From the NCBI RefSeq assembly GCF_913020055.1, contig NZ_CAJWCF010000005.1, positions 1 through 64,000 on the forward strand: a stretch of 64,000 nt of DNA. Direction: 5' to 3'. Numbering within the stretch: the first letter of the stretch is position 1; every line of letters starts with the position of its first letter. Below are positions 37,671-40,389 of the stretch, piece after piece. The notes below the pieces were generated by a model. That model saw only the letters and a list, made by a program, of their open reading frames with translations. It had not been told where the DNA came from and did not search any database. Source of the DNA: an uncultured Paraglaciecola sp. Its GTDB lineage: Bacteria > Pseudomonadota > Gammaproteobacteria > Enterobacterales > Alteromonadaceae. The position numbers and the translations under genes are program-made.

Positions 37671-38381
37671 CTAAGCAGCAGGTTGGGTAGGGTGAGCCGT
37701 ATCTGCACTTGAGGACAGTGCTTGCCTATGTAAAATACTGGAGAATTCCTCCATAAAATTGCCGTAGCTATTTTCAAGTTTTTCTACTTGATGACTAAAC
37801 CGGTTGTAAGCAATTACCGCTGGTATTGCAGCAAACAAACCCATAGCTGTAGCAATCAATGCTTCGGCAATACCTGGCGCAACCATTGACAAGGTAGCTT
37901 GTTGTTGCCCACCTAAAGCAATAAACGAATTCATTATGCCCCACACAGTGCCAAACAAACCAATATAGGGACTAATAGATCCTGTTGTGGCTAAGAAAGG
38001 TAAGCGGCTTTCCAAACGATCTATTTCACGAGATAAAGACACCCTCATAGCTCTTGAAGTACCTTCCATAACCGCATCTGCTGGTGTGGAAGGGTTTTTA
38101 CGTGACCGAACAAATTCTTTAAAGCCAGCACAGAACATACTAGCCATGCCTTCTAGAGATTGGCGTGCAGCTAATTCTTGATAAAAACGGTTGAGATCAA
38201 CACCTGACCAAAATTTATCTTCAAATTTTTTCATTTCAGAACGAGCAAAATTTAACGCTCGGCTGCGTTCAAATATGAATGCCCATGAGGCAACAGATGC
38301 CGCAAGTAATAACAACATAACCAGTTGCACAAGCAAACTGGCTTCAAGAATAAGATCAACAAAAGATAACTCAGATGGCAC
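37671..38381 (-). CDS. tolQ: Tol-Pal system protein TolQ
   Basis: An ExbB/MotA-type inner-membrane protein forming the pentameric stator around TolR. Three transmembrane helices are visible (about 14-36, 135-160 and 168-195), with the conserved stretches [20 protein letters not shown] and [20 protein letters not shown]. Length 236, close to E. coli's 230. Its start overlaps ybgC by 11 bp. Confidence 0.97.
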
Positions 38382-38775
38382 TTGAAAATTCCCCTAAAAT
38401 TTTGTCAGGAATAGCTTGTGGTTTCATACTAGATAAATTGACACAAGCCACTCTGATTAACGCACTGACCAAACACTTTTCGTTTGGACTTATTATTATT
38501 TGTTTGAATACTAAACTAGCACGCTTTAATTCTACTATTTCAGACTGAATACACAACAATTCATTGAAACGAGCAGGCGCATGATTGTCCATTTCAACAC
38601 GTTTGACGACAAAACCCACAGAATGTTCCAAAAGAATGTCTTGCTCTGTGCCCATTTGCCTTAACCACTCGGTTCTGGCGCGCTCTAAAAACTTCAAATA
38701 GTTAGCATAATAAACTATGCCTCCCGCGTCGGTGTCCTCGTAATACACTCGCACATTGTGACTATGTTTGTTCAT
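38371..38775 (-). CDS. ybgC: Tol-Pal system-associated acyl-CoA thioesterase YbgC
   Basis: A 4HBT hotdog thioesterase of the cytoplasm. The catalytic segment [28 protein letters not shown] near the N-terminus carries the Asp. At 134 residues it equals E. coli YbgC. It is the first gene of the tol-pal operon, and its 3' end overlaps tolQ. The function in the Tol system is not settled; links to phospholipid metabolism have been proposed for the family. Confidence 0.96.
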
Positions 38776-39194
38776 GGTAAGTTACTTTTATAGATGCTAA
38801 GAGAATAGTTATTACTTTTACATACCTAAGTCTAAGGTATCAAATATCCCAACCTGTGAATCTTTATGCTAACAAACAATATGAAATGCTGAACTGAACA
38901 TTTACTTCACTGAAAAACTTTCTTATTTATCATGATTTTAGCAGAAACAAAGACATACACTCTAACGATATGAACACTTTTAAAATGAATAATTATTCAA
39001 TTAAATAGAACTAACACTTAACTAACAAAACACTAACAAGCAATAGTAAAATTAATAGTTTAAAAATCAAACGAATTAAAATACCCTTTATTATTCAGTA
39101 GGTTGGAAACAAAATAAAGCGAAATAAACATTTTATTTACATTTTTGATTAAAACACATTAGATTTTCTAATCCTTTGATTAATTTAATTCAAT
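38776..39194. other. Intergenic region upstream of ybgC
   Basis: AT-rich, no supportable protein gene on either strand. It must contain the tol-pal promoter (minus strand). The right part of the gap, 39195-39360, carries the promoter-like elements and terminator described separately as a candidate plus-strand RNA. Confidence 0.5.
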
Positions 39195-39221
39195 TGAACC
39201 TTTGGTTTATTTAACTAGAAT
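39195..39221 (+). promoter_or_regulatory. Candidate promoter of the plus-strand RNA
   Basis: TTGAAC (39195-39200) and TAGAAT (39216-39221) are separated by 15 bp, which is short. The -10 is preceded by C (CTAGAAT), a feature favoured by sigma-S, for which a weak -35 and unusual spacing matter less. The call is tentative; it is based on position, about 110 bp before a strong terminator stem. Confidence 0.35.
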
Positions 39222-39227
39222 ACGTCT

Positions 39228-39360
39228 TGTTTTCTGAACTGCACATTGTTTTCCAAATGAGGCAAACGATGAAGTAAATAGTTTATTTGACATGTTCCCT
39301 GGATTTATTTCCTTTAACACTAGTTGTTTGGCCCACATTTATTATGTGGGCTTTTTTTTT
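39228..39360 (+). ncRNA. Candidate intergenic small RNA
   Basis: A strong plus-strand intrinsic terminator closes the gap between ybgC and ruvB, both of which are on the minus strand, so some plus-strand transcript must end here if the terminator is used. With the promoter-like elements at 39195-39221 the RNA would be about 130 nt. It has no open frame of note. The single-stranded-looking part contains TTCCCTGGA (39295-39303), a C-rich seed-like stretch also found in the enterobacterial sRNA SdsR as I recall it; that likeness is too short to assign orthology. The 5' end is a guess. Confidence 0.45.
39331..39360 (+). terminator. Strong intrinsic terminator with no plus-strand gene in front
   Basis: GCCCACAT and ATGTGGGC form an 8-bp stem with a 5-nt loop, followed by nine T. 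The T-run is on the plus strand only; in the minus direction the stem is followed by CAAACAAC, so it does not serve ruvB. Confidence 0.85.
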
Positions 39361-39381
39361 GCCTGAAGGTTTTAGAGTCAA

Positions 39382-40389
39382 TTACTCTGCTGAGTAATCT
39401 TTACCAAAGTGCAAGAAAGCACGTTGTGTAGCAATACGCCCCCTAGGAGTACGTTGCAAAAATCCCTGTTGGATTAAAAAGGGTTCAATCACATCTTCGA
39501 TGGTTTCTCGTTCTTCACCAATGGCCGCAGCGAGGTTATCCAGACCCACAGGCCCACCCATAAATGTTTCAATGATAGCCAACAGTAACTTTCGGTCCAT
39601 ATAATCAAGACCTTCTTTATCGACATCCAATATGTCCAACGCTTGACTGGCGACCTCTAGGGTAATATTTCCATCGGATCTGACTTCAGCAAAGTCTCTC
39701 ACTCGACGTAATAGGCGGTTGCTTATTCGAGGTGTACCTCTGGAACGTCTGGCAATTTCAAGAGCACCTTCTTCGTTTAGGTTTAGGTTCAAATAACTCG
39801 CCGAGCGTTTTACAATTTGTGTGAGATCCTTAATATTATAAAATTCTAGACGCTGCACTATGCCAAAACGATCTCTAAGAGGCGAAGTTAACGAGCCCGC
39901 TCTTGTTGTTGCACCTATTAACGTAAAAGGCGGCAATTCCAATTTTATTGAGCGCGCTGCTGGGCCCTCTCCAATCATAATATCCAGTTGGTAATCTTCC
40001 ATTGCTGGATAAAGAATTTCTTCTACAACTGAACTAAGACGATGAATTTCATCAATAAACAACACATCGTTTTCTTCAAGGTTTGTCAAAAGTGCGGCTA
40101 AATCACCGGCTTTTTCAAGCACAGGTCCAGAGGTGGTTTTAATATTCACCCCCATCTCGTTTGCCACAATATTTGCTAAGGTAGTTTTACCTAAACCAGG
40201 AGGACCAAATATGAGTAAGTGATCTAAGGCATCGCTACGTTTTCGCGCTGCCTCAATAAAAATTTCCATTTGTGAGCAGACATGATCTTGACCAGTATAA
40301 TCAGCCAACATTTTAGGTCGTATGGCACGATCAACTACTTCATCTTCGTGGCTGGCGGTAGGTTTTATTATGCGGTCTGCTTCAATCAT
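39382..40389 (-). CDS. ruvB: Holliday junction branch migration helicase RuvB
   Basis: The AAA+ motor of the RuvAB complex. Walker [10 protein letters not shown] is at about 62-70, Walker [10 protein letters not shown] near 115, sensor I in [20 protein letters not shown], and the C-terminal winged helix has [15 protein letters not shown]. Length 335 against 336 in E. coli. It is 98 bp after ruvA, further than usual, but no terminator or promoter could be identified in between. Confidence 0.98.

Follow-up and report, generated by a model that had tools for sequence, protein, structure and literature searches.

A predicted small RNA gene in the ruvB-ybgC gap of Paraglaciecola, representing a new family most likely controlled by GcvA

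The ruvB-ybgC gap and its predicted transcript

The window analysed here is the whole stretch of 64,000 nucleotides at positions 1-64,000 of NZ_CAJWCF010000005.1 (contig C5 of genome G000), and its gap between ruvB and ybgC is the site of a candidate small RNA (sRNA) gene on the plus strand. The genes and elements of the locus are listed below.

38371-38775, minus: ybgC, family confirmed by profile match
39158-39172, no strand assigned: predicted GcvA recognition site ATTAGATTTTCTAAT, an ATTAG-N5-CTAAT palindrome (10/10 match) with its centre about 63 nt upstream of the predicted start
39194-39199, plus: -35 element TTGAAC inside a conserved TCAATTG, from homologue alignment and promoter scan
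39216-39221, plus: -10 element TAGAAT (CTAGAAT at 39215-39221), from alignment and scan; TATAAT in Alteromonas and other homologues
39228-39360, plus: predicted sRNA of about 133 nt, with the start predicted 7 nt after the -10 element
39228-39287, plus: variable 5' part of the RNA, drifting freely between genera in the alignment
39288-39329, plus: conserved core with the C/U-rich predicted pairing region UUGACAUGUUCCCUGGAUUUAUUUCCUUUAACACUAGUUGUUU, from alignment
39330-39360, plus: intrinsic terminator with a 9-pair stem and nine T, from scan, folding and covariation; putative Hfq landing site
39382-40389, minus: ruvB, family confirmed by profile match

As described in an initial annotation of this DNA, a GC-rich stem followed by nine T is present in plus-strand orientation between two minus-strand genes: the stem GGCCCACAT/ATGTGGGCT occupies 39330-39352 with eight standard pairs and one G-U pair, and the T-run extends from 39352 to 39360. 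The terminator faces away from ruvB, in agreement with the earlier view that it does not serve this gene. The TTGAAC/CTAGAAT pair reported about 110 bp before the stem was recovered as well, TAGAAT being located 109 bp before it, and no conserved ORF was found inside the predicted transcript, matching the statement that no coding frame lies between promoter and stem. Note that the interval given in that annotation (39195-39360) starts just downstream of the GcvA palindrome, so that the key feature fell outside.

A scan of the gap found one terminator, compared to 0.1 expected from shuffled sequences, while the promoter pair by itself is at chance level (3 found, 3.4 expected). The folding z-scores are -4.5 for the 36-nt terminator and -3.4 for a 135-nt transcript. 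Promoter and terminator become significant because they are conserved among the homologues. The chance-level promoter pair would fit a locus without any regulatory RNA, at which a terminator happens to follow a chance promoter, or which represents a ruvB 3' UTR or antisense element. This explanation appears very improbable, since it conflicts with the orientation of the terminator and with the joint conservation of box, -10 element, core and terminator in four families, including loci without a ruvB neighbour. An sRNA gene of about 133 nt on the plus strand is strongly supported by the sequence, and the earlier estimate of an RNA of about 130 nt is borne out by the conserved promoter, core and terminator. 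The general features of Hfq-dependent trans-acting sRNAs are present, namely an own promoter and terminator, no ORF, a conserved unpaired region and a U-tail.

Conservation, distribution and comparison with known RNA families

The conservation in related genomes, which had been suggested as a check, extends to promoter, core and terminator. In the homologue alignment, the core is nearly invariant, reading ACAUG(AG)UUCCCUGGA-UUUAUUUCCUU-AACACU(A/U)GUUGUU and then passing into the terminator. The terminator stem varies by compensatory substitution: among 47 distinct sequences, 98.9% of the cells are paired and 78 double changes occur, as opposed to 25.9 in shuffles. A fixed core, a covarying terminator and a drifting 5' part together form the pattern of a trans-acting sRNA with a conserved pairing region.

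By DNA search, the core was found in 18 of the 21 other genomes of the genus; in the remaining three (G005, G011, and G014) this search did not detect it, yet all of them contain gcvA with its box. A scan of genome contigs for TTCCCTGGATTTATTT returned mostly chance matches, and the named homologues belong to Alteromonas and Paraglaciecola species. In the Alteromonadaceae loci checked, the 3' core (corresponding to 39288-39360) adjoins ruvB, which lies just past the terminator and is convergent with the RNA. For more distant searches, two covariance models were employed, one built from the core (R1) and a broader one (R2), the latter searched class-wide. The R1 model scores the window at 97.3 bits over 39278-39361 and, within the order, also exceeds 40 bits in f6, f15 and f20, three families besides the Alteromonadaceae. 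The RNA gene again adjoins ruvB in f20 and is located near ybgC in most f6 loci, where neighbouring genes resembling motY and rnt suggest that f6 may represent the Shewanellaceae. The class-wide R2 search yielded two false positives (L348 and L349), which are box-less unrelated terminators in other orders scoring 45-49 bits. As the scores of homologues outside the Alteromonadaceae (41-57 bits) overlap with those of these two terminators, membership outside the Alteromonadaceae rests on the promoter box.

The locus passes no Rfam threshold, which also answers the covariance search proposed in the initial annotation, the SdsR model included. The kinship to SdsR hinted at there was not borne out: the SdsR/RyeB model (RF00111) yields no hit at this place, even with E values up to 10, and the true SdsR of this genome is encoded elsewhere (L039, G000:C4:90939-91033), scoring 57 bits and thus above the Rfam threshold. 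The stretch TTCCCTGGA (39295-39303, inside the conserved core) is a short shared motif only, as is TTCCCTGG upstream of the terminator, which both RNAs have in common. Apart from this motif, a relative of SdsR under sigma-S control could be argued, weakly, from the C preceding the -10 element; nothing further was found in support of the sigma-S preference claimed for this element, which reads TAGAAT or TATAAT across the homologues, and the promoter, being of another type than that of SdsR, points to GcvA. Moreover, SdsR is not recognised by the R1 covariance model, which scores SdsR 3' ends at no more than 13.7 bits. Taken with the separate genomic copy, these data make such a relationship almost certainly wrong.

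Three other families were considered and rejected. ArcZ carries UUUCCCUGG in its processed 3' part, a motif shared by the new RNA, but the ArcZ model (RF00081) gives no match in this genome and none over threshold in 41 relatives. FnrS (RF01796) does not match at the locus and reaches only 16.6 bits on another contig of the genome. The anti-hemB family of Burkholderia (RF02837) resembles the new RNA in UCCCUG and in a similar terminator, the window scoring 27.3 bits and f15 homologues up to 38.7 bits against a threshold of 49.5; however, the internal stems of that family are not formed, and even the best homologues show mismatched stems. The RNA should be regarded as a new family within a known type of circuit, most likely one controlled by GcvA, and an alignment and a model are now at hand for this family missing from Rfam. 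No paper dealing with both GcvB and Alteromonadales was found in the literature searched. In a primary transcriptome study of A. macleodii, 127 small RNAs were assigned to the chromosome (PMC5864184), and it is possible that the RNA has already been detected there as an unnamed transcript.

The GcvA box and the relation to GcvB

According to a study of LysR-type regulators (PMC5002191), gcvB is preceded by two GcvA sites, the more conserved of which reads ATTAG-n5-CTAAT and has its centre at position -65 relative to the gcvB start. The palindrome ATTAGATTTTCTAAT agrees with this site in sequence, its centre lying about 63 nt upstream of the predicted start as compared to the published -65. Among 50 homologues, it is matched at 10/10 positions in 30, at 9/10 or more in 46 and at 8/10 or more in 49, and in nearly all of them, including those of f6, f15 and f20, the distance from its centre to the predicted start is 63-65 nt. 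In shuffled upstream regions, a score of at least 9 occurs anywhere in 320 nt in 3.7% of the cases. A counterpart of the weaker of the two GcvA sites (IR2, at -43) was not made out by eye in the new promoter. The promoter also contains TTAATTTAATTCAATTG, which had raised the idea of an ArcA box; this was dropped, since the stretch, unlike the palindrome, is not conserved in the wider set.

GcvA has one orthologue in the genome, encoded on contig C126 and scoring 437.6 bits with NF008352 (cut-off 288), and the upstream region of gcvA carries the same box in every examined genome of the genus, including this one. Exact boxes are about as frequent genome-wide as expected (13, as against 14 for the reversed control pattern), and 10 of these 13 are situated inside ORFs. 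The three intergenic copies are those in the RNA promoter, in the gcvA promoter and upstream of a gene for a ThrE-family exporter. This restriction of the intergenic copies to the RNA, gcvA and thrE is the strongest single argument for regarding the box as a working GcvA site.

At the third of these places, an exact ATTAGAAAAACTAAT box (L228:1501-1515, G000:C82:4421-4435) is located 138 nt upstream of the gene for the threonine/serine exporter, which was assigned by its match to PF06738 (212 bits). From its sequence context, the exporter is predicted to be a further member of the GcvA regulon.

The palindrome has the general form of LysR-type sites, and a genuine sRNA could in principle be controlled by a LysR-type regulator other than GcvA. 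LysR-type boxes have the common form T-N11-A, such genomes contain several LysR paralogues (with weaker matches), and a 2011 regulon study of Shewanella states that the GcvA motif inferred there is not the same as the E. coli one (PMC3223726). This study lists GcvA and leaves gcvB unmentioned (PMC3223726). Nevertheless, the box of the RNA matches that of gcvA in the same genomes, often down to the same A5/T5 spacer, and the only other intergenic copies in this genome are those at gcvA and thrE, which makes another regulator rather improbable.

With GcvB, one of the most thoroughly studied global sRNAs in enterobacteria, the new RNA has in common a Rho-independent terminator with a long U-tail and a GcvA box of the form ATTAG-N5-CTAAT near position -65, the two 3' domains resembling each other weakly. 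In contrast, GcvB contains a GU-rich R1 seed, is about 200 nt long and is encoded divergently from gcvA, whereas the new RNA comprises about 133 nt and lies beside ruvB or ybgC, in this genome on a contig other than that of gcvA (C5 and C126, respectively). The GcvB model (RF00022) matches the window at 39209-39358 with 15.4 bits, below its threshold of 42. The seed TGTTGTGTTTG, which was seen in the GcvB loci L280, L282 and L287, is absent from all 50 homologues. The missing GU-rich seed, the smaller size, the position away from gcvA and the score below the model threshold are the reasons why the RNA was not filed as GcvB.

Across the 149 genomes of the order, GcvB reaches at least 40 bits in 34, all from families f5, f8, f9, f10, f12, f18 and f21, and the new RNA at least 41 bits in 26, all from f1, f6, f15 and f20. 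The two were found together in 0 of the 149 genomes (raw genome counts, related genomes being counted singly). Beside gcvA, no GU-rich seed was seen in the inspected loci of f1, f6 and f15, several of which contain a small protein gene at this place.

One of these genes (L230:1680-1982, plus) codes for 100 amino acids with a signal-peptide-like start and occupies the usual place of GcvB, pointing away from gcvA and sharing its box; it has no Pfam or NCBIfam match. Different small protein genes occupy this place in other genomes. At L282 (G025, family f2), gcvA is flanked by a divergent, compact sequence resembling GcvB, which contains the GU-rich seed AATGTTGTGTTTG as well as a terminator but is missed by the Rfam GcvB model.

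The R1 covariance model matches GcvB 3' ends in 22 of 30 loci with 17-32 bits, the next best non-GcvB match scoring 12 bits. The 3' domains of the new RNA and GcvB may thus have a distant common origin. A stronger form of this idea regards the RNA as a true GcvB orthologue which has kept the promoter and the 3' domain, lost the GU-rich seed and moved from gcvA to the ruvB-ybgC gap. The shared box, its equal spacing of 22 nt to the -35 element (compared by eye), the non-overlapping distribution of the two RNAs and the preference of the R1 covariance model for the 3' ends of GcvB over those of SdsR all fit such a descent. However, neither the GcvB model nor the seed is matched in the new RNA, its gene does not lie beside gcvA, and the 3' similarity could reflect strong terminators with U-tails in general. 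Diverged orthology therefore appears unlikely, though still worth considering. The replacement of GcvB by an sRNA with an unrelated seed in the Alteromonadaceae and three other families, with GcvA and its box retained and the RNA, its location and its pairing region exchanged, is a proposition for which we regard the case as evenly balanced. If true, large marine lineages would have retained this regulator and its box while using them to switch on another RNA, representing a clear case of sRNA turnover under a fixed regulator.

Proposed mechanism and candidate targets

We consider it probable that the locus encodes a GcvA-activated, presumably Hfq-dependent RNA with a C/U-rich pairing region, acting in place of GcvB. 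This proposal builds on the gene anatomy, its conservation and covariation, the box and its position, the sharing of this box with gcvA and thrE and the lack of overlap with GcvB, from which we infer transcription, GcvA binding, a response to glycine, Hfq dependence and targets. The ATTAG-N5-CTAAT box at about -63 would be bound by a regulator of the LysR type, most likely by GcvA, of which the genome has one orthologue, and this regulator would, by analogy with GcvB, activate the sigma-70 promoter, presumably when glycine is plentiful. Transcription of the plus strand would then proceed from about 39228 to 39360, the RNA ending at its own terminator, whose U-tail may serve as the Hfq landing site as in comparable sRNAs. 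The single-stranded C/U-rich core (UUCCCUGGA...UUUCCUU) probably pairs in trans with purine-rich ribosome-binding regions. The targets may be mRNAs for amino-acid handling, as in the case of GcvB but reached by a different seed, and the RNA would take the place of GcvB in the families carrying it. The RNA and the thrE-family exporter would then be GcvA regulon members which are directly testable in Alteromonas relatives.

This proposal is weakest with regard to the class of targets. An 18-nt complement, with up to three mismatches allowed, was not commoner than its reversed control, and its recurrent site precedes a transposase-like gene, as judged by eye. GcvB represses mRNAs for amino-acid and peptide transport; of such candidates, those examined were the AGCS symporters, which showed no conserved pairing with the RNA, in part owing to uncertain start codons. 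In two genomes of the genus, an AGCS symporter gene contains one in-frame TAA (G000:C14:22018-23517 and G015:C33:64366-65871), which may reflect gene decay or an artefact at the borders of the search.

Outside the locus, several terminators were observed after a similar TTTAGTGTGTGTTT...TAGTATGTGTTTAGCCCAGAT stretch at L023, L025 and L026 (genomes G003 and G004), possibly representing another, repeated sRNA family in Paraglaciecola.
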